64,000 nt of DNA from Portulaca oleracea (lineage: Eukaryota; Streptophyta; Magnoliopsida; Caryophyllales; Portulacaceae). Positions 8,001 to 63,370 of this stretch are shown here, in pieces (positions within the stretch are counted from its first letter, which is position 1; each line of letters starts with the position of its first letter). Position numbers and translations under genes: made by a program. The notes beneath the pieces were generated by a model. That model was given only the letters and a program-made list of their open reading frames with translations, was not told where the DNA came from and did not search any database. The DNA is taken from contig CM055893.1 in assembly GCA_029582165.1 (NCBI GenBank), forward strand, positions 28,085,679 through 28,149,678, read 5' to 3'.

Positions 8001-8935
8001 ATGGTCACTTAAACTCTTCAAATTAAAAGTAAGAGTTTTAAAATTTTATAATTTTATAATTTTCAAATATTTATAGAACTTAAAATTTACAATTTAAAAA
8101 TTAAAAATTTCAAACTAAAAAATTTATGAACCATAAACATAAAAATTTTAAAATTGAAATTTTAAAAATTTAAAAATTTAAAAATTAAAAATTCAAAAAG
8201 TAGAATTAAAATATTTAAAAATTAAAAGTTAAAAATTTGAATTATTAAAGAATAAAAATTTTTTAAAAATTTCAAAAACAAAAAAATTAAAAGATAAAAA
8301 ATTTAAACATTTAAAAGTTAAAAATAACAAAAGTTACAAAATCAAACATAAAAAGATTAAAAAATTTCAAAAATTAAAAAATTAAAAAGTTTAACAATTA
8401 AAAATTTAAAAATTAAAAATTAGAAATTAGAAATTTTTTAAATTAAAAATTTAAAAGTTAAAATAAAATAGTCTAAAAAAAATAACAAAGTAAACAATAA
8501 AGAATAAAAAAAAATGTGATATTAAGAAATAAAAAATAAAAAAATAAAAAAAATTTAAAAATTTAAAAATTTAAAATAAGAAATTAACAAATATAAATAT
8601 AAAGAAAATTAAAAATTAAAAAAAATAAAAAATTGAAAAATTTGACAAATTAAAAAATTAAAGTTTAAAAAAGTTAAAAATATAATTACAAAATTAAAAA
8701 AATCAAAAATCAAAACTCAAAAATTCAAAAATTCAAAAATTCAAAAAATTAAGAAGGTAAAAGATTAAAAGATTATAAAATTATAAATTATAAATGAAAA
8801 TTTTAAAAATTAAGAATGAAAAAATTTGAATAAAAAAATTAAAAAATTCAAAAATTAAAAATTCAAAAATAAAAAATCATAAATTAAAAAATAGAAAACA
8901 TAAGACTAAAATTATAATTATAATAAATAAATAAC
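8000..8935. repeat. A/T-only low-complexity tract
   Basis: About 930 bases made almost entirely of AAAATT, AAAATTT and TTAAAAA words with very few G or C. It is strongly A-rich on the plus strand (T-rich on the minus) for most of its length, so it is not a simple palindrome. No fixed repeat unit is visible, which suggests slippage-grown degenerate low-complexity DNA. Confidence 0.8.
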
Positions 8936-15949: not shown

Positions 15950-17406
15950 ATGCAGACTCGTTCTCGGCCTGGCCAGCCGCCATCTACTCCACCGAATTCG
16001 AAATCGGAGAATATTATTTGTCAAGCGAACGCTAGCTCGAGACGAGAGAGACAACAAAGAGAGCAAAGAGAATTGAAATTCCAATGGCCGACGGACTACC
16101 AGATCCACCACGTACCTTAGCTTCGTACTCATTACCATCCTCGGGTACGGGAGGCGCTCCCATTGTATTACCAGAATTACTTACAAATGCATCATTCAAG
16201 TTTAAACCATATTTGCTTGATATATTCAAGAATGCTCAATACCGTAGAGGTGAACATGAGAACCCCGTCAATTATATCAACAGGTTCGAGCAACGTATTG
16301 GGTTTGCGCAAATGAACGTTGTTTCCGCCGAATACATGAAGTTCATGTTCTTCCCTCTCACCTTGAAGGGGAAGGCATTGTTGTGGCTCATCACTTGTCC
16401 ACTGGGTACCTACTCTTCATGGGACGCTCTCAGTCGTGATTTTCTTCAAAGGTTCTTTCCTAATGATGAGACATGTAGATTGAGGCAAGCTATTATGAGT
16501 TTCAAACAAGAGCCCGGTGAAACCTTATTTGAAGCATTATGGAGGTTCAAAGGCCTCCAGTGGAGATGTCCTCACCACAATCTAGAAGATTGGCTCCTTT
16601 TACATCATTTCTACTGGAGATTATGTAGCTCTTTGCGAGAATCTATTGATCATGCTTCGGGAGTCATGTTTGTCAAAAAGACAACGAAGGAAGCAAATGT
16701 ATTCTTACATGAGTTATCTCAAAACTCTCCACACTGGGGAGGAGCCCGTGGTTCAAGAGATGGAGGTACTTCTTTGGAAAGCAATCCCACAATCAAGTTT
16801 CTCATGAATGCCGTATTGGAGATGCAACAAAAGAAGGCCCTTGAGGAGACCACAAGGCAAGTCAAAGCTGCTCAAGAGATACCATTGCTTATTCCTACCC
16901 CGGATGCTAGAGTTGTGATTTGTGATTTTTGTGGAGGACCGCATTCTTTACAACAATGTGGTGTATGCCAATTCGAGAAAAAGCAAGTCGTTTATCCTAA
17001 CAACAACCTTGCCTATTCCACTCAAAATCCAGTTCGCCCTCATGGGAACTATGCATACAACCAACAACCCTCACAAAACCAAAACCCACCTCCTGGATTT
17101 CAAAACCAAACCCGTCGCCCATACCAGCAAAACACCCATCATGGTCAATCATCCCAGACCTCAAAGACACCCCAAGAGCTTTCCATTTAGCAATTGTTGC
17201 AAAAGATTTCATTGACCCAAGATAGAGACCAAGTTCGTATTAAAAACCTTGAATTGCAATTGGCTCAAATGGCACAACAAGCCAAACCTATCCAATCTCT
17301 TCCTATCCAACCTCAACCCAACCCCAAAGGGAAACTTAATGCAATTACATTGAGGAGTAGTAGAGAGATTGAGGGTCCCAAAATGGTGGATGAGAGTATC
17401 TTGTGA
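15950..17406 (+). pseudogene. gag: A1 gag
   Basis: A start at 15950 opens MQTRSRPGQPPSTPPNS, then a frameshift leads into a 368-residue ORF (16084-17190). The capsid part carries NPVNYINRFEQRIGF, FFPLTLKGKALLWL and AIMSFKQEPGETLFEALWRF, the standard Athila/Tat gag order. A cysteine-containing segment (VICDFCGGPHSLQQC, about residue 277) stands where the Athila zinc-binding motif lies. A Gln/Pro/Asn-rich tail follows. After the stop at 17190 a second frame (17194-17406) holds NLELQLAQMAQQ and KGKLNAITLRS, the conserved linker before protease. Gag packages the element RNA. One frameshift and two stops make it non-functional. Confidence 0.85.
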
Positions 17407-19308
17407 GAGAGAGAAGCTGATGTGGTGGACATTACGGAGGAGGAGGATTTGGAAGAAAAAGAGGAGAATGAGTTTGTGCTAGTGGAGGGAAGCAAGGAGG
17501 TTTGTGAGGAAGAGCAAGGAGAGTCCAATATTGAACATGAGTTGATTAAGAAAGAAAGAGAATAGATGGAGAAAGTAAGAAAGGGAAAATGAGTTATGAT
17601 AGAACAAGAACTAATTCAAGCCATTGAGAAGCCAAAGACCCAACCACTGCCGGTGCCTTTTCCCAAGCGGTTAGTCAAACCAAAGTCGGATGCTAAGTTT
17701 TCGAAGTTCATAGAGATGCTCAAGAAACATCAAGTGAATATCCCATTCTTAGATGCTATTTCTGTCTTCCAAGGTTCCCTCATTTAAGAAGCATTTAAAG
17801 GAACTTTTTATAAGCAACGGAGAATTCAAGAGAAGTCTACTATTCACTTGACGGCTGATTGTAGTGCCATTATTGGGAACAAAACCCCGGAGAAACTTGC
17901 TAATCCTGGGAGTTTTTCTATTCCATGCACTATCGGAGATATGAGGATTGGTCGTGCTCTATGTGATTTTAGGGCTAGTGTAAGTGTTATGCCATATTCT
18001 ATATGCCGTAAGTTAAATCTTGATGATTTAACCCCCACAACAATCAATCTTCAACTCGCCGATCGTTCCGTGAGTAGACCATTGGGGATATTGGAAGACA
18101 TTCCGGTCCACATGGGTAGATTTTTGATACCTTGTGATTTTTTCATTTTGAAAATAGATGAGGATGTCAACATCCCTATTTTGGGACATCCATTCCTTTT
18201 TGCGGCCGGAGCGATGATAGATGTGAAGAATGGTCGTATGTCACTACATGTCGGGAATGAAAGCATTGTCTTTAACCTTGACGGGTCTTTGAAGAATCCT
18301 TCACTTGGGAATTCGTGCTATGCTATCGATATTATGGAGATGTTAGTTGATGAATATGTGGAAGAATCTCATATGCTTGAGTCTTCATGTGAAGATCCTT
18401 CGGGGACAGGTCTTCTTGAATCTTTTCAATTTGACCCCGAAGGTATCGATATCACATTTCTTACCAACCTTCTCAATTCAACACCGACACATGAGGAGAT
18501 TACTATTGATGAGCCTTATTTTGAGTGTATGGAAATTCAAGAAGTTCTCTGCAAAGTTATGTCTTCTTCTCAAGCTAAACCCTCTCCCCCTCAATTAGAA
18601 CTTAAACCCTTACCCCCTTCTTTGCGTTATGCTTTCTTAGATGAGAATGAGTCTTGTCTTGTAATTGTGAATTCCAAATTGCAAGAACCTGAATTCTCTA
18701 AGCTGCTTGATTTGTTAAAAAAGCATAAGGGTGCATTGGGGTATAAGATTGAGGACTTGAAGGGTATTTCTCCATCTATTTGCATGCATTCCATTGATTT
18801 GTTAGATGATGTAAAACCTACTAGGCAACCACAACGTAGGTTAAACCCCAATATGCAAGAGGTGGTTAAGAAAGAAGTAGTCAAGCTTTTGGCCGCTGGG
18901 ATCATCTTCCCCATCGCCAATAGTGAATGGGTAAGCCCGGTTCAATGTATGCCTAAGAAAGGTGGGATGACAATTGTTGAAAATGAAAAGCATGAGCGTG
19001 TGAGTAGCCAAACCGTCACGGGATGGCGGATGTACATAGACTATCGACAATTGAACAAAGTTACAAAGAAATATCACTTTCCCTTCCCCTTCATAGATCA
19101 AATGTTAGAGAGGTTAGCGGGTCATTCTTACATTTGTTTCTTAGATGGGCACTCGGGATTTTTCCAAATTCAAATTCATCCTGCACATCAAGAAAAGACC
19201 ACTTTTACTTGTCCTTATGGCACTTTTGCATATAGGACGATGCCTTTCGGTTTGTGCAATGTGCCCGGTACATTTCAAAGATGCATAATGGCTATTTTTA
19301 GTGACTAA
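17407..19308 (+). pseudogene. pol: A1 protease and N-terminal reverse transcriptase
   Basis: 17407-17847 is an acidic linker with stops and a frameshift. The 17848-19308 ORF (486 aa) starts in protease: SVSVMPYSICRKLNLDDLTP and PLGILEDIPVHMG are typical of Athila protease. The catalytic DLGAS is changed to DFRAS at residues 36-40, which should abolish proteolysis. RT follows: the N-terminal KPTRQPQRRLNPNMQEVVKK block, GWRMYIDYRQLNKVTKK, FIDQMLERLAGHSYICFLDG and YGTFAYRTMPFGLCNVPGTF. A stop at 19306-19308 cuts RT just before the catalytic MDD block, which continues in the next ORF. Confidence 0.85.
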
Positions 19309-19320
19309 ATTGAGCATTGT

Positions 19321-20112
19321 ATGGAAGTTTTTATGGATGATTTTTCTATTTATGGCCATTCGTTTGATGATTACTTGAGTAATTTGGAAAAAGTTCTTGT
19401 TCGTTGTGAAGAAGTATATTTAGTTTTGAATTGGGAGAAATGTCATTTCATGGTAGAGGAAGGAATTGTTTTGGGGCATTTGATTTCATCTAGGGGCATC
19501 GAGGTTGACAAGGCTAAGGTTGAAGTGATTGAGCGCCTACCACCCCCGATTTCCATTAAAGGGGTGTGTAGCTTCCTTGACCATACAAGTTTTTACCGCC
19601 GGTTCATCAAGGACTTTTCGAAAATCGCTCGTCCTTTAGCTGACCTCTTGTGCAAAGATGCCCCATTCTCCTTTACTGATGAGTGTCTTGAGGCCTTCTA
19701 CAGGTTGAAGCAAGCGCTAATTTCCGCACTGGTAGTCCAACCTCCGGATTGGACTCTACCGTTCGAGATTATGGCCGATGCAAGCGACGTCGCTGTTGGA
19801 GCTTGTTTAGGCCAAACAAAGGATAGGAAGCCACGTGTCATTTATTATGCAAGCCATGCATTTGATAGCGCTCAAAAGAATTATACAACAACGGAGAAGG
19901 AGCTCTTGGCCATCAATTTTGCTCTAAACAAATTCCGCCAATATTTGATGTTCTACTGAGTGATCGTTTATACGGACCATGCGACAATAAAGTTTCTAAT
20001 GGGAAAGAAGGAGACAAAGCCGAGACTTATTCGGTGGGTTTTACTCATGCAAGAATTTGATTTGGAGATCTGAGACAAGGTCGAAACCAAAAATGTAGTA
20101 GCAGATCATTTA
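19321..20112 (+). pseudogene. pol: A1 RT C-terminal part and RNase H
   Basis: The ORF 19321-19959 opens with MEVFMDDFSIYGHSFDDYL, the RT active-site block with both aspartates of the MDD triad present, then the RT thumb/connection (FYRRFIKDFSKIARPLADLL). RNase H follows: IMADASDVAVGACLG keeps the first catalytic Asp, and TTEKELLAINFALNKFRQYL holds the Glu helix. A stop at 19959 interrupts it; the [13 protein letters not shown] block lies beyond, before another stop near 20072 and the integrase ORF. Confidence 0.85.
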
Positions 20113-21489
20113 TTGAGAATTCTTGTTGATTTGAAGGAGTCCCAACCCATCGAAGATTCCTTTCCGGACGAACATCTTTTGACCATCAAGAACACTCACC
20201 CATGGTATATGGATATTATCAATTACTTGGCAAGTGAGGTAATCCCTCAAAACCTCACTCCACACCAAAGAAAGAAGTTTTTCCAAGATGTGAAACATTT
20301 CTATTGGGATGATCCGTTTTTGTTCCGCTTGTACAATGATGGGATGTATAGGAGATGCTTAACCGAGAGTGGGGTGAAGTCTGTTTTGGCTCATTGCCAT
20401 GAACTTCCATGTGGAGGTCATGGAGGCTCCCATAAGACAACCGCTAGAGTATTACAATTGGGTTATTGGTGGCCCACTCTATTTCAAGATGCTCATTTTC
20501 ATGTCAAAAGATGTTATAAATGTCAACGATCCGGGAACATCTCCCGTCGAAATGAAGCGTCTTTGAATTATATTCTTGAAGTAGAAGTGTTCGTTGTTTG
20601 GGGATTGGACTTTATGGGTCTATTTCCATCTTCAAGGGGCTACCAAGACATTTGTGTGGCGGTTGACTATGTGCCAAAGTCGATTGAAGCAATCCCATGC
20701 GTTAGATGCGATGGAAGATCCGTGTCTAAGTTTTTGAAGAAGGTCATCTTTCCTAGGTTCGGAATTCCAAGAGTTATCAATAGTGACAATGGCTCTCATT
20801 TCATTGAGAGAAGGTTCGAGTATTTGTTATCAAAGTATGGCACCAATCATAAGAGAGGACTCCCCTATCATCCTCAAACTCAAGGCCAAGTTAAGATTTT
20901 GAATCGCGCTATTAAAGAAGTTTTGGAGAAAACCGTTGCTTCTTCGCGAAAGGATTGGGTATACAAGCTTGATGATTTTTTATGGGCTTACCGCACCGAT
21001 TACGAAATGCCCATAGGAACTACTCCATACCGTCTAGTCTATGGGAAGGAATGCCATATTCCCGTAGAGCTTGAGCACAAAACGATGTGGGCTATTAAGA
21101 AGATGAACTATGATCTTAAAACGGCGGGCGTAAATCGTCTATTCCAATTGGAAGAGCTTGAAGAGTTGAGGCGATACTCTTACAAAAACAATAGGATCTA
21201 TAAAGAGCGCATTAAGGCTGGGCATGACAAGAGGTTGAATCATAGGGAGTTTAAGGTTGGTGACCAGGTTCTTATGTTCAACTCAAGACTTAAAATCTTC
21301 TCCGAGAAGTTGAGGTCAAGATGGTCGTGGCCTTTTGAGATTGTAAAAATCCTTCTTGTTGGGGTTGTGGAACTCAAGAATGATCAAGGAGATTGTTTCA
21401 AGGTCAATTCCTCAAAGATCAAGCCTTATGTCATGGGAGAAGAATACGTGGAGACTGTGGTAATTTGCCTCGCTGATTTTCGTGGATGA
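20113..21489 (+). pseudogene. pol: A1 integrase
   Basis: The 458-residue ORF covers the zinc-binding N-terminal region (HGGSHKTTARVLQLGYWW and CYKCQ), the catalytic core (WGLDFMGLFPSSRGYQD with the first Asp; INSDNGSHFIERRFEYLL with the second) and a C-terminal part with FKVGDQVLMFNSRLKIF. The third catalytic acid is replaced: HPQTQGQVKILNRAIKEVL has Lys where the family has Glu. With that change the enzyme should not join DNA strands. It ends with the usual Athila pol tail and is followed by a non-coding region, not an ORF3. Confidence 0.85.
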
Positions 21490-23334: not shown

Positions 23335-23378
23335 GCTCGGGACGAGAAAAAGTTTAAGTGTGTGTGTGTGTGGAGGGG
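23335..23378 (+). promoter_or_regulatory. Hairpin and polypurine tract, A1
   Basis: CTCG-GGA-CGAG (23336-23346) is followed by AAAAAGTTTAAGTGTG, a GT run and GGAGGGG directly before the LTR start TGTTTAGACCC. The purine tract is partly converted to GTGTGT. Confidence 0.6.
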
Positions 23379-25137: not shown

Positions 25138-25176
25138 AATGCCCCCATGCTTAGCTCTTGCTTGTCTCCAAGCAAG
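25138..25176 (-). promoter_or_regulatory. Hairpin and terminal polypurine tract
   Basis: Minus-strand stem CTTGCTTG, loop GAGA, stem CAAGCAAG (25157-25176; 8 of 8 paired), then AGCTAAGCATGGGGGCAT and the LTR start. Confidence 0.75.
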
Positions 25177-27212: not shown

Positions 27213-27250
27213 AACCCCCATGCTTAAACACTGCGTTGTCCTCAATGCAG
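27213..27250 (-). promoter_or_regulatory. Internal hairpin and purine motif
   Basis: Minus-strand CTGCATTG, AGGA, CAACGCAG (27231-27250; 7 of 8 paired) followed by TGTTTAAGCATGGGGGTTG. It lies 40 bases after the ORF3 stop. Confidence 0.65.
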
Positions 27251-27289
27251 AAGACAACGGTGAAGGGTAAGGGCAGGCAATGCAAAAGA

Positions 27290-27580: not shown

Positions 27581-27839
27581 TGATAAGTCGTTTTTATATA
27601 GAGTTTTTAGGGCTCAAAACATATCAGCTTCATGCTTTTTGTATCCGATATATAGTATTTTTGTGTCAATTTCTGCGATTTATACACTTGTTTGGGAGTT
27701 TGGTGTGTTTTACAGGAATTGGTGGAATTATATCAAAAAGCATGAAGAATTGGAGAAGAAATAGCAAAAATCATGGAAAATAAAAAAAAGAAGTTGAAGA
27801 AGAAGAGAAAGAAGGAAGGAAGAAACGGCCCGTTATGCC

Positions 27840-29654: not shown

Positions 29655-31142
29655 TGATAAGCCGCAAGTGCACGAGTGAAATTGTAGCATATATCAAGGT
29701 CGATCCCACAGGGACTTTGCTAGCTACACACCAAACTAGCTTCCTATGTGATTGCTAAATCAGTCGGGTTTTGAATGAGATCAACCTATAGCTAATTCTA
29801 TTCACTAACAAATAGCAAATCTAACTAATATTGACACAAATCACAAGATCCAATCAATAGGAAAAGGACGTTCAGGGGATAAAACCTAAGTAACTCTATG
29901 AATCAAATAAGTGGATTGAACATGTATGTCACCAATTTGGTACATTTTAGGGTCGATAATCGCATAAATTATTCCGTAGCGAGCTTTTGGCAATGAAACG
30001 GATTGCTTAGCAAAATCAATCACCTACTGTCGTGGTTATTTCAATTTTAACTAAGTTAAAGATCAAATTATCCAATGACCCCTAATTATAAAGTCTTCTA
30101 TGTCTAGTTCACTTCATAACTAATTTAATCCTAAGGGTTCCGATTATCGAATTTCTCCGTTCGGTACTTCATTCAACAATCTAATTCCATATTCTTGATG
30201 GCCAGTCAAAAACAATGACATACATAATCAAAGGATAAATGATATGCATTCAAACTAGATAACAACTTGTTCAATCCAACAAAATTCAATCCATGAAAGC
30301 AACTAATTAGAGTTTATCCCCCAAACTAAAATAAACTACTCACTACTCATGTTCAAAACACAAAACATATCAAAATCTATTCTAGAAAGCATGAAACCTA
30401 AAAGAAAGAGAAGTAAACCGAGATGGAAATCGTTCCTCGCTTGAATGATGATCGGTGGGGACTTTTGCTCCTCCACTTCAATGGATTTCTTGAGAATCGA
30501 TCTTCAAACTCCAATAAACCCTCAATCTTCAACTAAGGATGAAAGTGGATGGATGTGTGGAGGAAGGGATGGATGATGGTAGAGATGGAGATGGATGGAT
30601 GGTATGGAAGGATATGGATTAGGGTTAGGTTATGGAATGGAAGATGGTAGAATCATCATTGCCTATGAACAACCGGAAACAAGCATAATATAGGCAAATA
30701 GCAACTCAAAACCGCCGAAAATGAAGAGACACAGGTGACACGGACCGTGCCAGGGGTGACACGGACCGTGCCTCCCAGGCACTACCCGTGTCAGTGCACT
30801 GCTTCAATTTTTCTCATGTTCTGGTCATAGGCACTACCCGTGCCTCCTCTGGCACCACCCGTGCCACTGCAGACTCGGGCCTAAGAGCTCTTCGGGCCAT
30901 TGTTTGGGCCTTGGGTGATCCAACTTCACACTTTTTGGTCCTTCACGCACACAACTTGGATCTACACTTGATTTTTGGCTTGGTTTACATCGATTCTTCA
31001 CAAATTCCCTACAAAACTCACCAAACTCCAAACCAAGCGTAATATGGGAAATTCGGGTATAAAATAATATAATCAAATCAAATATTCCCCAAACTTCTCA
31101 TCAAAACAACCAAGTTTTCATATATACAAGAAGTACTTATCA
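29655..31142 (-). mobile_element. 3' LTR of the non-autonomous element
   Basis: On the minus strand it starts TGATAAGTACTTCTTG at 31142 and ends CGGCTTATCA at 29655. The conserved LTR tail CCCTGTGGGATCGACC lies at about 29698-29713. The GC cassette (30720-30890) is shorter than in the other LTR. Confidence 0.9.
30720..30890 (-). repeat. GC-rich cassette, 3' LTR of the non-autonomous element
   Basis: Words GACACGGACCGTGCC (twice), GGCACTACCCGTGTC, GGCACTACCCGTGCC and GGCACCACCCGTGCC form dyads. Confidence 0.6.
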
Positions 31143-31181
31143 AAATCCCCCATGCTTAGTCCTTGCTTGTCCCTAAGCAAG
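31143..31181 (-). promoter_or_regulatory. Hairpin and terminal polypurine tract
   Basis: Minus-strand CTTGCTTA, GGGA, CAAGCAAG (31162-31181; 7 of 8 paired) followed by GACTAAGCATGGGGGATT and the LTR start. Confidence 0.7.
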
Positions 31182-32875: not shown

Positions 32876-32910
32876 CCCCCCATGCTTGGAAAAAGCATTG
32901 TCCTCAATGC
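32876..32910 (-). promoter_or_regulatory. Internal hairpin and purine motif
   Basis: Minus-strand GCATTG, AGGA, CAATGC (32895-32910) then TTTTTCCAAGCATGGGGGG. It lies about 120 bases after the stop of the 241-residue ORF. Confidence 0.65.
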
Positions 32911-34316: not shown

Positions 34317-35825
34317 TGATAAGCCGCAAGTGCACGGGTGAAATTGTAGCATATATCAAGGTCGATCCCACAGAGACTTTGCTAGCTACACACCAAACTA
34401 GCTTCCTATGTGATTGCTAAATCAGTCGGGTTTTGAATGAGATCAATCTATAGCTAATTCTATTCACTAACAAATAGCAAATCTAACTAATATTGACACA
34501 AATCACAAGATCCAATCAATAGGAAAAAGACGTTCAGGGGATAAAACCTAAGTAACTCTATGAATCTAATAAGTGGATTGAACATGTATGTCACCAATTT
34601 GGTACATTTTAGGGTCGATAATCGCATAAATTATTCCGTAGCGAGCTTTTGGCAATGAAACGGATTGCTTAGCAAAATCAATCACCTACTGTCGTGGTTA
34701 TTTCAATTTTAACTAAGTTAAAGATCAAATTATCCAATGACCCCTAATTATAAAGTCTTCTATGTCTAGTTCACTTCATAACTAATTTAATCCTAAGGGT
34801 TCCGATTATCGAATTTCTCCGTTCGGTACTTCATTCAACAATCTAATTCCATATTCTTGATGGCCAGTCAAAAACAATGACATACATAATCAAAGGATAA
34901 ATGAAATGCATTCAAACTAGATAACAACTTGTTCAATCCAACAAAATTCAATCCATGAAAGCAACTAATTAGAGTTTATCCCCCAAACTAAAATAAACTA
35001 CTCACTACTCATGTTCAAAACACAAAACATATCAAAATATATTCTAGAAAGCATGAAACCTAAAAGCAAGAGAAGTAAACCGAGATGGAAATCGTTCCTC
35101 GCTTGAATGATGATCGGTGGGGACTTTTGCTCCTCCACTTCAATGGATTTCTTGAGAATCGATCTTCAAACTCCAATAAACCCTCAATCTTCAACTAAGG
35201 ATGAAAGTGGATGGATGTGTGGAGGAAGGGATGGATGATGGTAGAGATGGAGATGGATGGATGGTATGGAAGGATATGGATTAGGGTTAGGTTATGGAAT
35301 GGAAGATGGTAGAATCATCATTGCCTATGAACAACCGGAAACAAGCATAATATAGGCAAATAGCAACTCAAAACCGCCGAAAATGAAGAGACACAGGTGA
35401 CACGGACCGTGCCAGGGGTGACACGGACCGTGCCCTTCTTTGCCGACACGGGATCGTGCCTCCGTGCACTACCCGTGTCGGTCGCTTCAATTTTTCTCAT
35501 GTTCTAGTCATAGGCACTACCCGTGCCTCCTCTGGCACCACCCGTGCCACTGCAGACTCGGGCCTAAGAGCTCTTCGGGCCATTGTTTGGGCCTTGGGTG
35601 ATCCAACTTCACACTTCTTGGTCCTTTACGCACACAACTTGGATCTACACTTGATTTTTGGCTTGGTTTACATCGATTCTTCACAAATTCCCTACAAAAC
35701 TCACCAAACTCCAAACCAAGCGTAATATGGGAAATTCGGGTATAAAATAATATAATCAAATCAAATATTCCCCAAACTTCTCATCAAAACAACCAAGTTT
35801 TCATATATACAAGAAGTACTTATCA
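34317..35825 (-). mobile_element. 5' LTR of the non-autonomous element
   Basis: Starts at 35825 and ends at 34317 on the minus strand, nearly identical to 29655-31142. The cassette at 35390-35600 carries an extra segment with CCGACACGGGATCGTGCC and a different spacing. Confidence 0.9.
35390..35600 (-). repeat. GC-rich cassette, 5' LTR of the non-autonomous element
   Basis: Same GACACGGACCGTGCC theme as 30720-30890 but rearranged and longer, while flanking LTR sequence is almost unchanged. Confidence 0.6.
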
Positions 35826-35830: not shown

Positions 35831-36720
35831 CATCACCTTTTTGGCGAAGTATTTTTCTGCAAAAAGCTCACCAGCCTAATGAATCAGATTTCTACATTCA
35901 CGCAGGAGCCGGATGAGTCACTATATGATGCTTGGGAAAGATTTAAGGACATTCTACGACAATGTCCTCAACATGGATTTGAACCTTGGGTTCCTATCCA
36001 ATCCTTCTTCAATGGAGCGAATGAGTCGACAAGAGGATGCATCCTCTCTGCAGCCAGAGGCGATCTCATGGACAAGACTATGCCTTAAATCACGAGTCTG
36101 ATCGAACATCTGGCGAACAACTCATGTCAGTGGTCTAAACCCCGCCAAAAGGCGGGAGGTATGTTTAATGTTGATGCAATTTCTTTATTGTCATCTAAAC
36201 TTAATTCTTTAAGGCAAAAAATGGACTGATTGAGTTTATCACCAAACCCTCCTACCTGTAATGTCTGTTAGTCAACCGAACACGAAACTTTTACTTGCCC
36301 TACAAGTGGAGCTAGTAATGAATAAGTCCAACAGGCCAACTATGTTGGCAACCAAACACAGAATTATGATATGAATTCCAACACTTACCACCCTGGACTT
36401 AGAAATCACACGAATTTTTCTTATATGAACGACAACCCTACTGGTCCTCTTCAAGGACAAGGACAAGGACAACAAAAGTATGTTCCCCCACCTCAAAGAC
36501 CACCTCAACAAGGCCGTCCTCGAAAATCTAACTTAGAAACCTTGATGGAAAGCCTTATCGCCGGACAGAAGAAACAAAAAAATGTCATAAAAGACTTAAT
36601 GCAAAAGGTAGAGGCTTTAGCAACCCACAATAAGATTTTAGAAAATCAGATCGCTAATTCAGCTACTCCCTCTACTAGTTTGCCACCTCAACCTGTTCCT
36701 AAACCCGAATACTCAATGTA
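35826..36720 (+). pseudogene. gag: Element B gag, second part
   Basis: Gag resumes after the nested element. ISTFTQEPDESLYDAWERFK and CPQHGFEPWVPIQSFFNG complete the capsid domain; stops occur near 35876 and 36086. A Gly/Gln/Pro-rich stretch (36371-36520) and a coiled-coil-like segment (IKDLMQKVEALATHNKILEN, about 36590-36650) follow, as in element C at 50130-50200. Breaks show that this copy is inactive. Confidence 0.75.
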
Positions 36721-37799: not shown

Positions 37800-38539
37800 G
37801 CCTCTTTCAATTTAGTCGAGCCCTCCTTTCGCTTTTTCTTTCATTTGAAAAGAAAACTCCTCCTTGCTTTACCCTAACCCGACAACCCCTCTCCCCAAAC
37901 GCCACCAGTGCCACCACCCACCACCGCTCTCGCCGCCGTCCACCTTGCCGGCGCCGACGACCATCAACACCACCACCTTCTTCTCTCTCTTCTCTTCTCA
38001 CTTGCACTCTAACACTTTGAATCTTCAAATTCGATTCCTCTTCCCTCTTCAACTCAAGGTATGGAATTTTCAACTCTTTCTCTTGTTCTTTGATTATATA
38101 CTTCATTCTTGGTATGATTTTGGTTGAATACTTGAGTTTATTGAATAATTTGTTCAATGTATACCATATATCATATCCTAGATTCGAATGTCTTGATTTG
38201 GGTTTGATTCTTGGATGAATTCTTGATTAGGGCTTGGTTTGAGTTGATTGATCTTTGATCTTTTTGTTCAAGAATTGAGAGAATTGTGATGTTGGATATA
38301 ATGTGAGAGCAATGTGATGTTGAAATTGAGAAATTTAGGTCTAGGTTTTGGTTGTGATTATGTTGTGGTGTTATACTATGTTTTTAGTAAGGTTTTAGGT
38401 TAGATTTATCTTGATTTCAATCCCTAGTATCAAATAAGCATGGGGGGTTTGTTAGTACTAAGTTTTGCATTATGATCATGCTTATTTGATACCCTAGAAT
38501 CTAACTTGGTGATTGTACTGATTTTGTTAGTATTTTTAG
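37800..38539 (+). promoter_or_regulatory. ORF3 leader with probable 5' UTR intron (element B)
   Basis: A C/T-rich leader (37800-38056) ends CTCAAG|GTATGG; TATTTTTAG at 38531-38539 directly precedes the ORF3 ATG. The GT-AG segment 38059-38539 (481 bases, T-rich 3' end) looks like an intron that would bring the leader next to the start codon. Confidence 0.5.
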
Positions 38540-39850
38540 ATGGTGAGAACTAAGAACCCTAGCTTTTCCGGACCACCAGGTGATAACAACGAAGCCGGAG
38601 GCAGCCGGAAGCGTAAAGCTACGGCAGCGGAAAAAGGAAAACAGAAGGCCGCACCTTCAAAGGACTCGGAAACCCAAACCCCTTCAATTTCGAAGGGGAA
38701 ATTAAGAAAAGGTACGACTCCCTCTCCCAAAGAGCCATCATCCTCACCAAATATATGCATGAAACTTTCTTGCGTAGTTGTGGTATGTTGGATGATGTTG
38801 ATTGGATGTTAGGTCGTTGTCACATGACCAACTTAGCTAGGTTAGGCGAACCGACCTATAGGAGGATTACCCTTGATTTTTTGTCGATCCTAGTTGTGAA
38901 CCTCCAAGGGAGGGACGGGTGCATTCGTTTCCAGCTTTTGGGGGTAGAGAGGACCATGATCGTGTCCTAATTTACCCGTGCCTTTGACCTTCCCGAGCGA
39001 ACATGCAGGAATTCATCCCTTATACCCGTAGATTGGGATGGACAGGGTTTCTTTTTCAGAATCTCAGGTTTTGACAATTGGGACCCTAGCAACACCCCCG
39101 CGATCGCGATTAGAAACCCCGTAATGAGGTATGTCCACCGCATACTCTCATGCAGTATTTTCGGAAGACCCGGTAGCTCAAACAAAGCTGCCCGGGCTGA
39201 TTGTTATATGTTGTGTTGCATGCTAGATGTCGACACTCGTGCTGACCCCGCAGCTATGTTAGCTCACCATCTTTCTAGTTTCGCCACCTCAACCAACAAA
39301 GGCATTGCCATAAGGGGGCTACGTTACTCACCTTGCACACCAATTCGGCTTTAGGCCACCTAGGAACCCCACTGACCTAGTCCTGGGTAGCTTATTCTTA
39401 GATGGGGACCAATGTAATGCCTTTGGTTTGTGTAAGTTTGATAAGGACTCGCGTTGCCTTTGGGTCTATCCCAACAACGCTAGGTTCCCTCTGCCTAACC
39501 CCCACACCTCACCCCAAGTTGCTGAGAATTTGATATGGATACCACCATTTCCTGAGTTCGATCCCGAGCCTGAACATGAAATCCACCCTGACCCTCAACC
39601 TGAACAACCCCAACTATATTATGAGGCGCGCTTTCATGACCTCCAAACCTCCATTGACCGGACCGAGCATCGTGTCAACGAGTTGAGGGAGAGTTTTGTT
39701 GAGTATAGGGGTCAGACTGACCTTCGTTCCGACCGCCTCGACGAGTCCATAGCTAACCTTGCTTGTCTTAAACAGGCCATGTTTGATCGAGCCTCACCAC
39801 CACTAGGACCGAGCCATACTAGCCCTTCCCCACCGACCGAGGATCCTTGA
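38540..39850 (+). pseudogene. Element B ORF3 (ATHILA ORF-1 / env-like family)
   Basis: The start at 38540 opens MVRTKNPSFSGPPGDNNEAG and a Lys/Ser/Pro-rich N-terminus. A frameshift near 38750 leads to the domain typical of the ATHILA ORF-1 family: LARLGEPTYRRITLDFLSIL, then after a stop NPVMRYVHRILSCSIFGRPG (39115-39180) and the Ala/His-rich block ending about 39354. A third frame (39428-39850) holds WIPPFPEFDPEPEHEIH and a coiled-coil-like stretch (LQTSIDRTEHRVNELRESF). The role of this protein is not established; older work calls it env-like, but no signal peptide is visible here. Several frameshifts show decay. Confidence 0.7.
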
Positions 39851-39884
39851 TCCTTTACTTGACCTTACCCTTCATCGTTGTCTT

Positions 39885-39922
39885 TTGCATTGAGGACAAT
39901 GCAATGGTTAAGCATGGGGGTA
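39885..39922 (+). promoter_or_regulatory. Internal hairpin and purine motif (element B)
   Basis: TTGCATTG, AGGA, CAATGCAA (39885-39904; 8 of 8 paired) then TGGTTAAGCATGGGGGTA, 34 bases after the ORF3 stop. Confidence 0.8.
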
Positions 39923-41903
39923 TGAATATTCTGTGAATATTTTTCTTATTTCTTTGTTTTTCATTTATTTTTCTTTTATTTTCGTCTTTCTTTTTCTTGT
40001 TTCATGCTTATTTTTCAGTTTTTAGTGTGATTTTTCTTGTTTTTGTGTGTTTCTTTTATTTGGTTATTCATAGTTTAGCATGCTTTTTAGTTTTTAGCTT
40101 GTTTGTTTTCTTTTATTTGAGTTTCTTGTGTGTTTTTCTTTTGTTTTATAGTTTTCTTAAGCTTTTCTTTCTAAGTTTTTCTCTTAAATTGCATCCACCT
40201 AGATTGTATTAGTTAGAAGCATATAGATTTTTCCTTTATTTCTTTTCTTAGTTTGTTTCTTTTTCTTTCTTTTGCATTCACAAATCCAAAAAAATCAGAA
40301 AATTAGAAAAAGATAAAAAAAATAAAAAATAAAGAAATGAAAAAAAGAAAAATAATATAGAAAAGAATGGAAAAAACCAAAAAAAGTATAGGATAGGACT
40401 AGGATTAAAACCGGAAACACCTTCGGTGATGATTTGTAAACCCTTCTTACTTTCAGTTTAACTTGCTTCGCTTAGAAAAGTTTGGATGAGATCTCAAAAG
40501 TTTTTGAAACCTTTTCCTTCAAATGTTCTGATTTTGAGACAAGTTGCGAAAGTTGTATTTGACTGTTTTGACTATCTTAGAAAGTATAAATGTGCGTGCC
40601 GCAAATCTTTGGGCTAAGTTTAGTTGATTGAGCCCCATCCCGTGAGTCCACATTGCCTAAATTTTGAACTGATCACTTTTATCAATTCCATGATCTCCCG
40701 AGTGACTCACCCATTAGTTGCATCTCTAGAACTTGTTTTGCATCTTGCTTGAGACTACATATTTGCATTGTACGCTGTGACAAAGTGATTAAGGCATCCA
40801 TTTTATTTTGTAAAGCTACATTGCTAAATGGCCTACCTTACATTATATTTACAAGTCTTTTTGCCTCGCCTAGCCTTTATTTATCCTTCTTTCATGATTG
40901 AACCCTGACAATACAAGCCTTGGCCTTCGATATCCAATATCCCTTTGCCTTGCTTGGTTGGATGAGAGTTTGCCGTTTTTTTGGAAGAAACAGTTGGTTT
41001 GGTGTGATCGTGAACAAAATATGAAGTTTGGGAGAATCTGAAAGTCCCGCAGTTTGAATGATTGGTGTTTGGTTATGTTGTTCATATATTTTATCGAGGT
41101 CGAAGTTATAATTCCATAGTTTTCTTCTCCCCGATCACCCACCAAAAAATAATAATAATAAAAGAGAGAAAAAGAGTTCCAAAAACGAAAGGGTGTTTAG
41201 GGAGATTCAATTTAAAGTCCTGAAAACTTTGACCTGGTTGTATTCAGTTGAGATGTTTCATATTGTTGTGGATGAAAGGTGAAATTCCTTGCATACATTA
41301 AGCAAGAAGGTGAGTTTAGAGTGTTATACTCGTTGAAAATCAATCCTAGCATGGCTCTCAACTCCTCATTGCCAAATTTTTCCGCTCCTTTCCCTTAACC
41401 TAAACCCAGTTACAACCCGGAAAAGTCCTTTTGATTGTCACTTGTGCATTGCATACCAGTAGTGGAGAGCGAGGCTCTTACCAAGCTTATGGTAGTTTGT
41501 TTCTATTGGTCTGAGTATGAGAAGAACTCACATACATATTCAAAATTGAGTGATTGAGTGTTTATTCTTTCCTATGTGAGGTTTGCTCTTTTTGATTGAC
41601 TTACGTCCATAACTAACCGCGCACATTTGCATTATTGTTAAGACTGTTGGCGGATTTATGCTCCTGAAGTACTTGTTCTCTCGTTTTGGTTTCGAAAATT
41701 TCTTCTCTCTCTTTTGAACTGAGTTTTGATCTTACCCAGACTGATCTTTGTGCTTGCTAGTTGAATTTATGTGTTCGAATGGTTAGCCTGAGGGGGTGTT
41801 AAGATTTTGTTCTTGTAATTCTATCGAAAACTCTTTCCGCCTCTTTCTCTTCCTAAATTTGTTTTTCCTGTTTGAGCCCTAATCCTCATGTTTTCAATTT
41901 TGA
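39923..41903 (+). other. Element B 3' UTR between the two hairpin/purine motifs
   Basis: About 2 kb, no credible ORF; colinear with the reverse of 25177-27212. Contains a T-rich tract (39930-40200) and an A-rich tract (40280-40400). Confidence 0.65.
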
Positions 41904-41942
41904 CTTGCTTGAGGACAAGCAAGAGCTAAGCATGGGGAGATT
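41904..41942 (+). promoter_or_regulatory. Hairpin and terminal polypurine tract (element B)
   Basis: CTTGCTTG, AGGA, CAAGCAAG (41904-41923; 8 of 8 paired) then AGCTAAGCATGGGGAGAT and the LTR start at 41943. Confidence 0.8.
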
Positions 41943-42209
41943 TGATAAGTCGTTTTTATATAGAGTTTTTAGGGCTCAAAACATATCAGTTTCATGCTTT
42001 TTGTATCCGATATATAGTATTTTTGTGTCAATTTTTGTGATTTATACACTTGTTCGGGAATTTGGTGTGTTTTACAAGAATTGGTGGAATTATGTCAAAA
42101 AGCATGAAGAATTGGAGAAGAAATAGCAAAAATCATGGATAATAAAAAAAGAAGTTGAAGAAGAAGGGAAAGAAGGAAGGAAGAAACGACCCGTTATGCC
42201 ACGACCCAA

Positions 42210-48907: not shown

Positions 48908-50302
48908 ATGCAAAAGATTCCGGAGTTTGAGTTCGATCCCGAGATTGAACGTACTCTCCATTTACGCTTGAAGAGACTGCGAATAGAGGAAGCTAGCAAG
49001 CAGCAAGAAGAGGAGTCTGCATCACAATAAAAAATGGCTGGTGGAGAAGCACAGCCGAAGGCATTGGAACAATACATTGCCCCAAATGTCACAGATCCTC
49101 CCACGGCCATCAACTCTCCCAACATCGCCAAGATGCCAACAATGAGTTTGAGTTGAAGAATTCCTTGATTAATCTGGTCAAAGCTTCGCCATTTCGTGGT
49201 CACCCTAGTGAGGACCCCAACCGACACCCCTGTATCTTTCTCTAGGCGTACGATACGTTCACGACGAACGGGGCCTCACCGGGTGCAATCAAGCTACGGT
49301 TGTTTTTCGTTTTCCTTGGAGGATCGAGCTTGGGCGTGGCTAGACTCTTTTCCGCCGAACTCCATCACCATTTTCGATCAGATGGCGAGCGCATTTCTTA
49401 ACAAATATTTCCCGCCAAGTAAGCTGACAGGCCTCCGCAACCAAATATCCACCTTTGTCCAAGAGCCGGATGAGAACCTGTACGAGGCTTGGGAACGGTT
49501 CAAAGATCTACTTCGTTGGTGTCCACATCATGGTCTTGAGCCATGGGTGCCCATCCATGCCTTCTACAATGGAGTGGATGATCAGTGAAGGCGATGATTC
49601 TCGCAGCAGCTGGGGGGAACATCATGAACAAGGCGGTCGATGATCTCTATTCTTTGATCAAGCAAATGGTGTCCAACAGTCATGAATGGTCCAAGCCCCG
49701 TTCCTCGAGAACGGGAGGTAAGTATGATGTTGATGCCATTTCTGTTTTAACTGCTAAAATAGATGTCGTGACTCAAAAGATAGACCGCTTGCATGTAAAT
49801 GCCAGTCCTCCCCAACCATGTGCTTCTTGTAGTTCATATGTTTTGTCCTGTTGGGTTAGCTAGTCCCGAGACCTCGGACCAGGCCAATTACATTGGAAAC
49901 CCAAGACAAAACTTTGACCCGTACTCTAATGTCTACAACCCGGGATTGAGATATCATCCTAATTTTTCCTATCGGAATAACAATCCTACGGGACCCCACT
50001 AACAACAACAGGCCCAAAGACCACCTGGTTTCCAAAGACAACAAGCCCAACCCCAACCCCAACCTCGAAAAACCCAAGAGCCTGACTGGAAGGCATTGAT
50101 GGAACGTATGATGGTGTCTCATAATCAGCATGAAGAGACCATCAAGCATTTAGTTGATAGAGTTGACCAGTTAGCAACTCACAACAAAATACTTGAGTCT
50201 CAGATTGCTAGCCAGGCTAGTACTTCCTCCACTCCTCCAGGAAAGCTTCCGAGCCAACCTGTTGCGAACCTAAAAGACCAATGCAATGCCATAACCTTAT
50301 GA
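48908..50302 (+). pseudogene. gag: Element C gag
   Basis: The start at 48908 opens MQKIPEFEFDPEIERTLHLR, then a stop at 49027. MAGGEAQPKALEQYIAPNVT follows. The 49196-49588 frame has AWAWLDSFPPNSITIFDQMA and LRNQISTFVQEPDENLYEAW; the next frame has AAGGNIMNKAVDDLYSLIKQ. A Gln/Pro-rich segment and the coiled-coil-like EETIKHLVDRVDQLATHNKI lead to the KDQCNAITL linker before protease. The order matches element B gag closely. Several frameshifts and stops. Confidence 0.85.
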
Positions 50303-53476: not shown

Positions 53477-54686
53477 ATGGGTGAAGCTCAAGCTGGTTCA
53501 CCTCGTACCCTTCTATCATATGTCGTTCCATCATTGGGTATGGGAGGAAGTCCTATCACTTTACCACCATTACCACCCGATGCTGTGTTTGAGTTTAAAC
53601 CGCACTTACTTGAAGACTTCGAAAGAAACCCGTTTTATGGGGACGATACTGCTGAAAGTCCCATTGCTCATATTGATAAGTTCGAAGACCGGATTAGCTT
53701 TATACACATTCCAAGGATATCATCAGAATATTTGAAGTTGAAATTCTTTCCTCTCACTCTTGCGGGGAAAGCGAAGATGTGGCTACAAACATGTCCACCT
53801 GGTTTTTATTCTTCATGGGAGGCACTCAAAGGAGATTTTCTTCATCGTTTATTTCCGGCGGAGGTGACACACCGACTTCGAGCAGAAATTTTAATTTTCA
53901 AACAAGGGCCGGGAGAGAGTCTTTTCGACGCTTGGGGGAGATTTAAGAGTCTTCAACGACAGTGCCCTCATCATAATTTACCGGATTGGATGTTGCTTCA
54001 ACATTTCTATCATGGGCTCCATGGTCCTCTTAGATAATCTATTGATAATGCGTCCGGAGGGATGTTTTTAAAGAAGACCATAGAAGAGGCCAATATTTTC
54101 TTACATGAGCTATCACAACACGCTCCTCATTGGGGGAGTGGCCAAAGTTCAGAAGACGGAGGCAATCTTTTAGAGTATAACTCCATTATAAAGTTTCTTT
54201 TGTCCACTGTTTGTGAAATGCAAAAAGAGAAGTCGAATGCGGAGGTTTCAAATCAGTTGAGAATTGCCCAAGCAATGCAATCCTTTGCATCCACTTCTAT
54301 TCCGAATGTTCATACTTGTGAGTTTTGCTATGGTCCACATCCTACCCAACAATGTGCAAAAATTCAACAATTGGTGTAAATGAATGCTATCCATTCTCCC
54401 TTCGACTACCAAGATCCTTTTCAATCACCAACATCACCCTTCTACTTCTCAACCCCATGAACATCACTCATTTATTCAAGAAGAATCCTTCCATCAAAGC
54501 CAACAAGATATTTCACAACCCCAAATTTCTTTACCACCCCAAGAATCGTCGATTGAGTTGATGCTTAAGCAAATCATGGAGAATAAAGAGAGAGATCGAG
54601 CTTACATCCGAAGTCTCGAACTTAAAATAGCTAAGTCAACCAACCTCAATCGATACCTATCCAAACTCAACTTGTTCAAGAGGTGA
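53477..54686 (+). pseudogene. gag: A3 gag
   Basis: MGEAQAGSPRTLLSYVVPSL starts the ORF 53477-54037. The capsid core has SPIAHIDKFEDRISFIHIPR, FFPLTLAGKAKMWLQTCPPG and LIFKQGPGESLFDAWGRFKS. A stop at 54035 splits it; the 54062-54379 frame continues with KKTIEEANIFLHELSQHAPH and a Cys/His-containing segment (HTCEFCYGPHPTQQC) like A1. The Gln-rich tail and the NLNRYLSKLNLF segment follow in another frame. The capsid is about 50 percent like A1 by eye, so A1 and A3 are distinct subfamilies. Confidence 0.85.
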
Positions 54687-57735: not shown

Positions 57736-58993
57736 ATGAGTGGAAGGAGCAAGCGTTCACATGTCGAGGAAGCTTCTTCATCGCAATCCGGATCATCTTC
57801 ATTTACAAAGGACTGTTACAAAGCGCAACCGACCACACTAATTTGGTGTGAACCTGATGCGGATGTAACTTTCCGAGATAAAGAGCATAGACAACGGTAG
57901 AAGTGCTACAAGCACGGAAAATATGTGCACCGGATATTTATGATGCGGCGACGATCGAAGCCATCCATTGTAAGCCAAGCTTCGATTATCTCATTGGCGT
58001 TCTTGGTTGGGAAGTGTTCATCATGATCGATGAATCGATTGTGGACCAACCCATCCTCGAATTTCTAAGCTCCTTGAAGGTTCATGATGATGGCAAAAAA
58101 GATGCTCATTCTGAATACCGATTCGCCAACAAAGATAAGAAATGCACCTTGAAGCATTTTTGCCAAAGGTTGGGGTTGGCCGAAGATGGGAGATTTTATG
58201 AGCGATGCGCAAATTTTGATGAGCAAAAGGCAATGAAAGACTTAACTTGTTGGAGGAGGATGAATCATGGCACGAGAAATGGAGAACCACGCTATCATTG
58301 CTCCCAAAACTCTAAGGCGCGTGATTTTTGCAATCTGGTCATACGAATCTTCCATAGAATCGTGACTAGTTCAGTATTTAGGAGAGATGATGGACGCCCC
58401 AAGGTTCGGAAAGATGATCTCTTTGTGATCTATAATGCAGTGAGGGGTAAAAGAGTCAACACCGGATCTTGTATTCTACATTGTCTTCGGGAGATTAGCA
58501 TGGAACCTCGACCCACTACTATTGGGATGGGGCACATCATTTGCCACTTCCTAGTTCAAGAAGGTTTGGGAAATATTTGAAGAAGTCGACACCGCGCAAT
58601 CTTCTGGATCCTATCGACAAGGTTCGATTGCAGAAAATGAATATCCTCATGAAGCACCCAAGTGACACGATCTATTGCCATGGACACGACGACAAAACAA
58701 AGATTCTCTTTGATCCGGACTATGCGGAGCAATGGTTGGATATCACTAAGGAGCATAACCGGTCTTGTGGTCAGGTTCCCAGTGACCGCAAGGTGGGTGG
58801 TCCGGATGTGTCCGATGGCGAGGAAGAAGAAGAGGACAATGAAGAAGAAGGGGAAGAAGAAGAAAAAGAGGATGAAGAAGAGGAGCATACTGGCCATGGT
58901 GAAGCTAGCGGAAGAGGAAGTCATCCATGGGAAGCTTCATTTGAGCATCTCAACTCTCAATTCGAGCAAATGAAAGTTGACCTTCGAGAATAA
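57736..58993 (+). pseudogene. A3 ORF3 (ATHILA ORF-1 / env-like family)
   Basis: The start at 57736 opens MSGRSKRSHVEEASSSQSGS. After a frameshift near 57900 the 225-residue frame (57903-58580) holds ILEFLSSLKVHDDGKKDAHS, CTLKHFCQRLGLAEDGRFYE and ARDFCNLVIRIFHRIVTSSV, in the order of the ATHILA ORF-1 family. The 58541-58993 frame continues with the IDKVRLQKMN region and a strongly acidic Glu run (about residues 95-112), then a heptad-like end. No signal peptide or clear membrane helix is visible, which speaks against a classic envelope protein in this copy. Function in the family is unknown. Confidence 0.7.
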
Positions 58994-59399
58994 CGAACGA
59001 TACTCTAGCATCAAAACAACTTGTTGGAGACCCAACAAGATCTGTTATGTGCCCAGCAGTCTACACTTCAAAGGCACGAGGAGTATTTTCAACAAGAAAA
59101 CCACAATTGGCGTGACTGGGGGTATTACCACTACTCCATTGCAAACAACCCCTAGCACCACCAGAGTACATGAACCACCACTATCCTACCTTCTTTCCTT
59201 ATCACCCATATCCTCCCCTGGGAGGATCCGAGCAATGATTTGTAAGTGTCCCCACTCCCACTTCACTCTCTTTATCTATTTTATTTACACTGTTAGTGTT
59301 AGATAAGTGTGGGGGGTGCTCTTTGGGAGAGTTGGGAAGTGCTAGTTGTTCTTGTTTGTTTGTTTTTGTAGGTTCTCTACCTTTTCATGTAACACCTTC
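58994..59399 (+). other. A3 3' UTR, first part
   Basis: May still include the ORF3 C-terminal tail in broken frames (to about 59230). TAAGTGTGGGGGGTGC at 59303 is a purine-motif look-alike preceded by a weak ACACT-GTT-AGTGT hairpin. Confidence 0.45.
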
Positions 59400-59444
59400 C
59401 CACAATGAGGACATTGTGGCATATTAAGTGTGGGGGGGGGGGGA
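59400..59444 (+). promoter_or_regulatory. Internal hairpin and purine motif (A3)
   Basis: CCACAATG, AGGA, CATTGTGG (59400-59419; 8 of 8 paired) then ATTAAGTGTG and a G12 run. Confidence 0.8.
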
Positions 59445-60722: not shown

Positions 60723-60759
60723 GCTCGGGACGAGAAAAAGTTTAAGTGTGGGGGGGGGG
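60723..60759 (+). promoter_or_regulatory. Hairpin and terminal polypurine tract (A3)
   Basis: CTCG-GGA-CGAG (60724-60734), then AAAAAGTTTAAGTGTG and G10 ending at the LTR start TGTTTAGCC at 60760. Confidence 0.75.
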
Positions 60760-60999: not shown

Positions 61000-61290
61000 A
61001 GAGGGGTAACACCCGCTACGATCCTCGTAGCGGGTGTTACATGCCTTGGAATGAAGGAAGGAACAATGGGAAGTAAGCCAGAGGGTCGCCCCCGCCACCC
61101 TATTGGTAGCACCCGCTACCTCAGCTGGGCCGAGGAAGATCCTACCTGCGGTCAGTGGATACCGTGCCTACGGTCGATCGAAGGAGAAAATCGCCTGCAG
61201 TTTTCGTAGGGTAGCGCCCGCCACCCTCCTTGTGGCACCCGCTACCTCCCCAGGACAGCAAAGAGACCGTACCTACGGTCTCCCTATGTT
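61000..61290 (+). repeat. GC-rich palindromic cassette, A3 3' LTR
   Basis: A perfect 16-bp inverted repeat with a 3-base loop (61006-61021 and 61025-61040, GTAACACCCGCTACGA and its complement) is followed by imperfect dyads (GTAGCGCCCGCCAC with GTGGCACCCGCTAC) and GACCGTACCTACGGTC. Confidence 0.75.
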
Positions 61291-62011: not shown

Positions 62012-62061
62012 CCACAATGAGGACATTGTGGCGTTTTAAGTGTGGGGGGGGGGGGGGGGGA
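62012..62061 (+). promoter_or_regulatory. Internal hairpin and purine motif, second copy
   Basis: CCACAATG, AGGA, CATTGTGG (62012-62031; 8 of 8 paired) then TTTTAAGTGTG and a long G run. Confidence 0.8.
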
Positions 62062-63332: not shown

Positions 63333-63370
63333 TTTTGCTCGGGGCGAGCAAAAGTTTAAGTGTGGGGGGG
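63333..63370 (+). promoter_or_regulatory. Hairpin and terminal polypurine tract, second copy
   Basis: TTTTGCTCG pairs with CGAGCAAAA around a GGG loop (63333-63353; 9 of 9 paired), then GTTTAAGTGTGGGGGGG and the LTR start at 63371. The first copy has lost the outer pairs. Confidence 0.8.

Follow-up and report, generated by a model that had tools for sequence, protein, structure and literature searches.

Several LTR retrotransposons of Portulaca oleracea carry a short inverted repeat directly before the polypurine tract. Is it the pairing of the two arms that is preserved, and what would such a hairpin contribute to the elements that bear it? We address these questions in a window of 64,000 nt from the 1.13-Gb genome, which is densely filled by LTR retrotransposons, and in further copies of the module; the scope is one genome and genomic copies only. 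The module is laid out as a stem of 8-9 bp, an AGGA, GGGA or GGA loop mostly closed by G-C, a spacer of about 3-6 nt and a purine tract.

Hairpin modules in the window

Six elements, labelled E1 to E6 from their 3' ends, bear the modules of the window. E3 (plus strand) is flanked by repeated LTRs starting at 27581 and 41943. Its internal hairpin, TTGCATTG-AGGA-CAATGCAA, occupies 39885..39904, 34 nt past the stop at 39850 of the ORF 39314-39850, and is followed by the tract TAAGCATGGGGG at 39909-39920; its terminal hairpin, CTTGCTTG-AGGA-CAAGCAAG at 41904..41923, precedes a tract at 41927-41942 that abuts the LTR. E5 (plus strand, LTR from 60760) and E6 (plus strand, between the LTRs from 60760 and 63371) have the internal hairpin CCACAATG-AGGA-CATTGTGG at 59400..59419 and 62012..62031, with tracts from 59425 and 62037, respectively. 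The terminal hairpin of E6, TTTTGCTCG-GGG-CGAGCAAAA, lies at 63333..63353 before a tract from 63357, and that of E5 has decayed to the 4 bp of CTCG-GGA-CGAG at 60724..60734, with a tract from 60743. Both modules are kept in E6 though no ORF is listed inside it.

Two elements lie on the minus strand. E2, a remnant at about 24.8-27.6 kb, has a terminal hairpin CTTGCTTG-GAGA-CAAGCAAG at 25157..25176, with the tract from 25153 and the LTR from 25137 downwards, and an internal hairpin CTGCATTG-AGGA-CAACGCAG with one mismatch at 27231..27250, with the tract from 27226 downwards. E4 is nested (LTRs at about 29655-31142 and 34317-35825); its terminal hairpin CTTGCTT-AGGGAC-AAGCAAG is found at 31162..31181, with the tract from 31158 downwards, and its internal hairpin GCATTG-AGGA-CAATGC at 32895..32910 precedes CCAAGCATGGGGGG. 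E1 (plus strand, about 15-23.4 kb) retains gag, RT, RNase H and integrase pieces at 16036-21489 by Pfam matches and a terminal hairpin decayed to the 4 bp of CTCG-GGA-CGAG at 23336..23346, where TG repeats break the tract before the LTR from 23379; no internal module was seen between 21,489 and 23,336.

Every hairpin listed in the first-pass annotation is present at its position, and the internal hairpin of E2 and the terminal hairpin of E4 have been added to that list. Its description of a module occurring twice per element holds for five of the six elements, E1 having no internal copy in the stretch read; one copy does sit at the LTR and one upstream, at a distance that widens from the proposed 1.4-2.1 kb to about 1.3-2.1 kb. 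The statement that the tract is always of the TAAG type is contradicted by the internal site of E4 and the terminal site of E1. The core TAAGYRTGGGGG is common to the internal and terminal sites of E2, E3, E5 and E6, from which the E4 internal site deviates.

Two additional plus-strand tracts in the window lack an RGGA hairpin: TAAGCATGGGGGG in E3 at 38435..38447 and TAAGTGTGGGGGG in E5 at 59304..59316, the TAA of which terminates the ORF 58974-59306. Together with loci L005, L008, L009, L012, L023 and L024 elsewhere, they represent TAAGYRTGGGGG-like tracts located upstream of an internal module, by about 1.48 kb in family A and 0.6-0.8 kb in family B.

Rfam returned four matches over the whole window at the gathering threshold, none of them over a module, and one match with E up to 1 in 39800-42000, outside the modules. 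The four are all to 'snoR71' (RF00097), on the minus strand at 16477-16583, 35873-35979, 49430-49536 and 53873-53979, antisense to gag-like sequence, and this family may be a model of a retrotransposon fragment. We also observed a 16-bp perfect inverted repeat at 61010-61044 (minus-strand match at 61026) in the LTR downstream of E5, and diverged short-distance repeats in the low-GC (22%) interval 8001-10000.

Recurrence across the genome and pairing of the arms

Genome searches were run with patterns free of stem letters, save the C after the loop in AGGACN{6,16}TAAGYRTGGGGG, and with each pattern reversed as control. This one matched 2,583 times in the whole genome (1,319 + 1,264) against once (0 + 1) for its reversal. 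The tract core TAAGYRTGGGGG alone gave 9,979 (5,027 + 4,952) against 280 (133 + 147), and RGGA followed by the tract 6,409 (3,162 + 3,247) against 17 (9 + 8), again genome-wide. Among the 100 RGGA-plus-tract matches listed, 14 belong to one repeat (275-277 bp downstream of the terminal B tract in L036, L052 and L075), 6 to a GCCAAATGC type and 2 to a purine repeat; a perfect stem of at least 6 bp is found in 64 of the other 78, which include two rows with the terminal B stem that their label had placed in the repeat class. The first 30 tract sites of contig 1 (L031-L060), a sample taken regardless of any hairpin, include 10 lying directly at an LTR. Nine of the ten form a perfect stem of 6 bp or longer; an 8-bp stem occurs in 3 of the other 20.

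A search for AGGAC before AAAGGGGG returned mostly background (378 against 303 in the control). Among its 100 matches listed, 83 have stems of 0-3 bp and 17 have stems of 5-11 bp with G.U allowed, and the latter include four previously unseen stems. A single family accounts for ten of the 17, and seven of its members stand in one array (G000:C3:33820266-33841667), where an AAGTTTG-AGGA-CAAACTT hairpin before AAAGGGGG recurs in seven copies about 3.4-3.6 kb apart; this is perhaps a tandem array of the 3' part of an element. One further search (129 against 43 in the control) showed two recurring sub-types with A-T or G-C as the outermost pair. Three other routes to new stems were abandoned. Allowing a non-C base after AGGA gave 211 matches against 15, but the 30 loci viewed were mostly decayed known stems or stemless; admitting C or T in position 2 of the 3' arm (230 against 2) led mostly to a separate conserved site; and one more pattern variant (29 against 0) gave mostly decayed known stems. 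The separate site, GCCAAATGC-TAAGCATGGGGG (L043 and others), shows no clear stem, and some of its copies lie 3.8-7.1 kb upstream of a same-strand terminal A module among the matches listed.

Pairing was counted in 58 distinct modules of five groups: internal A (11), internal B (13), terminal A (10), terminal B (15) and chromovirus-type (9). A fixed register of eight pairs per module was used because a MAFFT alignment gapped the terminal A stem and shifted that of terminal B; the loop length of 3 for terminal B and 4 elsewhere is a fitted choice. One GCCAAATG row, L101-L110 and copies without an RGGAC loop, such as E1-type decay or the E2 terminal copy, were excluded. Of the 464 stem cells 434 are paired, 430 as Watson-Crick pairs and 4 as G.U. 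Re-dealing the 3' arms 2,000 times gave a mean of 270.1 paired cells (sd 14.2) and a maximum of 316, and sliding the register by 1-3 positions left 148-205. At the first position 51 rows have G-C and 7 have A.C, while positions 2-8 each accommodate two to four Watson-Crick pairs (CG, AT and TA at position 4, for instance, and CG, GC and TA at position 5). Loop and closing base, G-G-A-C, are invariant in all 58 rows, though row selection required it.

The commonest 5' arm of one group pairs with the 3' arm of another at five or fewer of eight positions in 17 of 20 combinations; cross-pairing reaches 7/8 for internal A with internal B and for terminal B with terminal A. Arm identity between internal B and the chromovirus-type group is 0-16%, and flanks show 24-35% identity between groups, while loop and tract are kept. 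Within groups, 7 cells have changed on both sides, 4 are G.U and 30 are broken; the broken cells are as expected from decay after insertion. Since the shuffles do not model relatedness, the safest count is that of separate stems, five groups and four more.

Could these hairpins be products of composition, as short inverted repeats scattered through T- and G-rich DNA? Such repeats do exist in the window, where 8 of 13 hairpins around GAGGA have no such tract behind them. The near-absence of control matches, the excess of paired cells over every shuffle, the two-peaked stem lengths and the stems at nine of the ten unselected LTR-abutting sites reduce this explanation to a negligible chance. The stem is very probably under selection for pairing and not for sequence, as judged from the aligned copies. 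The first-pass annotation had likewise taken differing stems with preserved pairing as a sign of selection on structure, a claim now well supported by the shuffle of arms, the unselected sites, the new stems and the comparison of flanks. Covariation is present, and stems are found in most intact copies, by a tree-unaware count in one genome.

A chromovirus-type group and placement of the families

The module occurs beyond Athila-type elements, in two branches of one plant genome. In the chromovirus-type group, a hairpin AAGTTTCG-AGGA-CGAAACTT is located between pol and the tract. It came to light through the text AGGACGAAAC, which recurred in a search with a background-like number of matches (117 against 112 in the control). 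Among 20 loci fetched, the ten with AGGACGAAAC have stems of 7-9 bp before the tract and the remaining ten 0-1 bp; the ten were picked by that text, so only the 5' arm constitutes an independent test. Different families among these ten loci are alignable over just 35-93 nt, round the hairpin and tract.

The order in L113/L098 is integrase C-terminal domain, weak chromodomain, stop, hairpin, tract and LTR. The integrase C-terminal domain of L113 matches PF24626 with E = 1e-26, and the Chromo domain of L098 scores 21.2 bits (E = 2.7e-4), under the curated 25.1. L113/L098 is a chromovirus; the other nine loci bear the clade name by resemblance and are putative members. A coding constraint, with an FEDE frame running through the hairpin, was considered and ruled out in L098: the chromodomain frame ends before the hairpin, and the module, which falls after the chromodomain stop and ahead of the LTR, is therefore not maintained by coding there. 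In L111, L112 and L114 the hairpin is surrounded by short reading frames of 7-51 residues.

An ATHILA ORF-1 domain (PF03078, E = 3.4e-6) was found at 38617-38967, in E3 only. The Athila/Tat scope suggested at first is too narrow, as the chromovirus-type group has the module too, and no sign of Tat was seen. Family B (E1, E5 and E6) gave no PF03078 match among the ORFs scanned. Four broken ORF pieces of E1 have Pfam matches without the additional archaeal-type RNase H domain, which serves as the criterion of the Tat lineage (PMC6317226); the placement of family B is putative.

Stem-to-LTR distance, folding and possible roles

The base of the 8-bp stem lies 17-20 nt from the first LTR base in all 22 Athila-type terminal copies with intact core arms (terminal A: 18 in two, 19 in eight and 20 in one; terminal B: 17 in one, 18 in eight and 19 in two). 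With decayed copies included, 31 of 36 fall within this range: 30 by script and E2, mis-anchored by the script, with 19 by hand. The five beyond it measure 21, 21, 22, 26 and 28 nt, E5 (21) and E1 (28) among them. Chromovirus-type copies range over 18-30 nt and exceed 20 nt in 6 of 10. The polymerase-dependent RNase H cut of the HIV-1 reverse transcriptase falls 18 bp behind the end of the primer and is favoured when the enzyme pauses (PMC3185654); the spacing of 17-20 nt comes close to this distance, an HIV-1 value that may not be that of the plant enzyme. The first-pass annotation had suggested two uses, positioning or protecting the primer and providing a second priming site; for the terminal hairpin the near-constant distance from stem to LTR favours positioning as the putative use.

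We propose, at a probability of roughly 0.4, that the module is a cis-acting structure for plus-strand priming in plant Ty3/gypsy elements, a pause hairpin placing the RNase H cut. During minus-strand synthesis, reverse transcriptase would copy U3, then the tract, and would then run into the hairpin of the template RNA; by pausing at the base of the stem it would bring RNase H to the junction of tract and U3. Stems could differ and yet stay complementary because, under the proposal, what counts is the pairing rather than the sequence of the stem. The RNA hairpin would act only before or during the arrival of reverse transcriptase, since RNA already copied sits in a hybrid. A role of the module in plus-strand priming, by whatever means, seems fairly probable. 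A pause or ruler mechanism is doubtful, its odds being lowered by the local folding results and by the spacing in decayed copies. The spread of chromovirus-type spacing, the five outlying distances and the conserved tracts without hairpins also count against a pause hairpin.

Minimum-energy folds of 83-nt stretches contain the module helix in 33 of 58 cases, and by group the best local fold has it in 2 of 11 internal A, 8 of 13 internal B, 7 of 10 terminal A, 9 of 15 terminal B and 7 of 9 chromovirus-type copies. The 23-nt hairpin on its own outfolds nearly all windows of its own flanks (the median fraction as good is 0-0.049 by group), and folding z-scores of eight 76-nt stretches range from -3.4 to 0.0. 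In internal A copies a competing helix between the upstream TTGTCTTC and GAGGACAA usually wins locally (L009, L017, L023 and 27216-27258 on the minus strand of the window are examples); the competing helix and the module hairpin are predicted to be mutually exclusive there and perhaps form a switch. G-tracts pair with upstream pyrimidines in local folds as well. Beside the scarcity of G.U pairs, the local folding result is the main weakness of reading the module as an RNA hairpin, as one would expect more than 4 G.U among 464 cells of an RNA helix.

The same observations suit a hairpin in DNA. The minus strand could fold beside the 5' end of the tract RNA once the upstream RNA is removed, shielding or marking the primer, or the repeat could be a double-stranded protein site. 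The almost exclusively Watson-Crick character of the paired cells (430 of 434), the ratio of broken to G.U cells (30 against 4) and the frequency with which RNA folds favour other structures all agree with this, whereas the conservation of the loop as RGGA does not, a double-stranded site has no other sign, and few G.U pairs are to be expected anyway, most rows being close copies. We regard a DNA role as improbable. The same low credit goes to an RNA element serving another step, be it Gag or nucleocapsid binding, packaging, RNA stability or translation end, with the RGGA loop as a putative protein-binding site. The invariance of the loop and its closing base under the row selection used, and the location of the internal copy of E3 shortly past an ORF stop, would fit such an element; the tie to a purine tract, seen internally as well as next to the LTR and also in chromovirus-type elements, and the narrow distance to the LTR speak against it.

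Work on other systems bears on the proposed priming structure in several ways. The mechanism of the polypurine tract was called unknown in a 2015 lentiviral RNA study, in which structure-dependent cleavage appears as a possible first step of primer making, although the precision of the cut would not follow from the helix in question (PMC4439019); an earlier study considers it improbable that primer function in lentiviruses is modulated by RNA structure (PMC3616985). The lentiviral helix, as described, includes the G-rich end of the tract itself, whereas the Portulaca module is a separate upstream hairpin, known from genomic sequence alone. Like the module, the U-box or T-box of retroviruses and Ty1 is a cis element sitting immediately 5' of the tract; it is important for plus-strand priming there and is described as a T-rich sequence rather than a hairpin (PMC10085805); among our spacers, AGC, GAC and GTG of terminal A are not T-rich, and CTTT and ATTT of the chromovirus-type group are. 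The Conserved Hairpin Site of the fungal GalEa Copia elements is a conserved LTR-adjacent hairpin thought to be needed for transposition; according to its description it differs in lying after the 5' LTR at the would-be primer binding site, in another superfamily and with conserved stem sequences (PMC5445492). The Ty3 tract is reported to have a lower base-pairing probability in its RNA (PMC11381356). In a paper on Retand 'polypurine' occurs once, and 'stem' and 'hairpin' never (PMC11963269); a paper on Diaspora describes the tract and likewise never uses the two words (PMC1142308).

The internal copy raises a question of its own. Its stem is preserved to much the same degree as that of the terminal copy (80 of 88 cells paired in internal A and 97 of 104 in internal B, against 74 of 80 in terminal A and 112 of 120 in terminal B). 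Among the 100 RGGA-plus-tract matches listed, at least 10 of 12 internal B modules have a terminal B mate 1.27-1.66 kb downstream; with mates 0.8-2.6 kb away, the counts there are at least 10 of 27 for terminal B (internal B mate), at least 3 of 15 for internal A (terminal A mate) and at least 3 of 22 for terminal A (internal A mate). These counts are minima, because a pair is scored only if both of its members fit the same pattern and appear among the matches listed. The paired arrangement is thus frequent in family B and within the window without being universal.

The internal copy might supply a second primer, in the manner of the central polypurine tract of lentiviruses and Ty1, a second internal tract resembling the 3' one; RNA structure is reported round both tracts there, with a link to RT pausing as a possibility (PMC4439019, PMC3616985, PMC5371799). 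The last of these sources gives no known central tract for Ty3 (PMC5371799). Use of the internal copy as a primer, as its sequence would allow, is somewhat unlikely in our estimate. The G-run of family B varies more in internal copies (6-17) than in terminal ones (6-10; Levene p = 0.003), which is weak evidence because long runs also slip more; the variance in family A shows no significant difference between internal and terminal copies (p = 0.17). Alternatively, the internal copy could be a functionless relic of an older 3' end, left behind after a gain of 1.3-2 kb of non-coding sequence before the LTR. The closest likeness is Bongo3, a Tekay chromovirus of beet, described with a second polypurine tract (PPTa) just past its last ORF, at the pol stop, besides the LTR tract; other families in that paper are given no duplicated tract in its available text, from which 'stem' and 'hairpin' are absent, and the likeness is one of description, not of sequence (PMC3605345). 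The cross-pairing of families A and B by position and the lack of an internal copy in the stretch of E1 read also agree with a relic. An internal stem preserved about equally to the terminal one, and the retention of both modules in the ORF-less E6, do not, and we hold the relic explanation tentatively at most. The remark in the first-pass annotation that no description of the module was known has to be narrowed accordingly: no account of plant elements with a hairpin ahead of the tract was found in literature covered mainly by titles and abstracts, and for Bongo3 an additional tract at the pol stop is on record.

The proposed priming structure can be taken furthest as an RGGA-loop 'ruler' hairpin that predates the split between Athila-type elements and chromoviruses and sets the RNase H cut, with the internal copy as a working second plus-strand origin; we consider this full version improbable. 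If true, a hairpin kept within a narrow range of the tract/LTR junction, whose stems vary yet remain complementary, would offer a simple and testable answer to how the polypurine tract works in plant Ty3/gypsy elements. The hairpin would also provide a handy signal for annotating the 3' ends of elements, and its two copies a natural experiment on second plus-strand origins.
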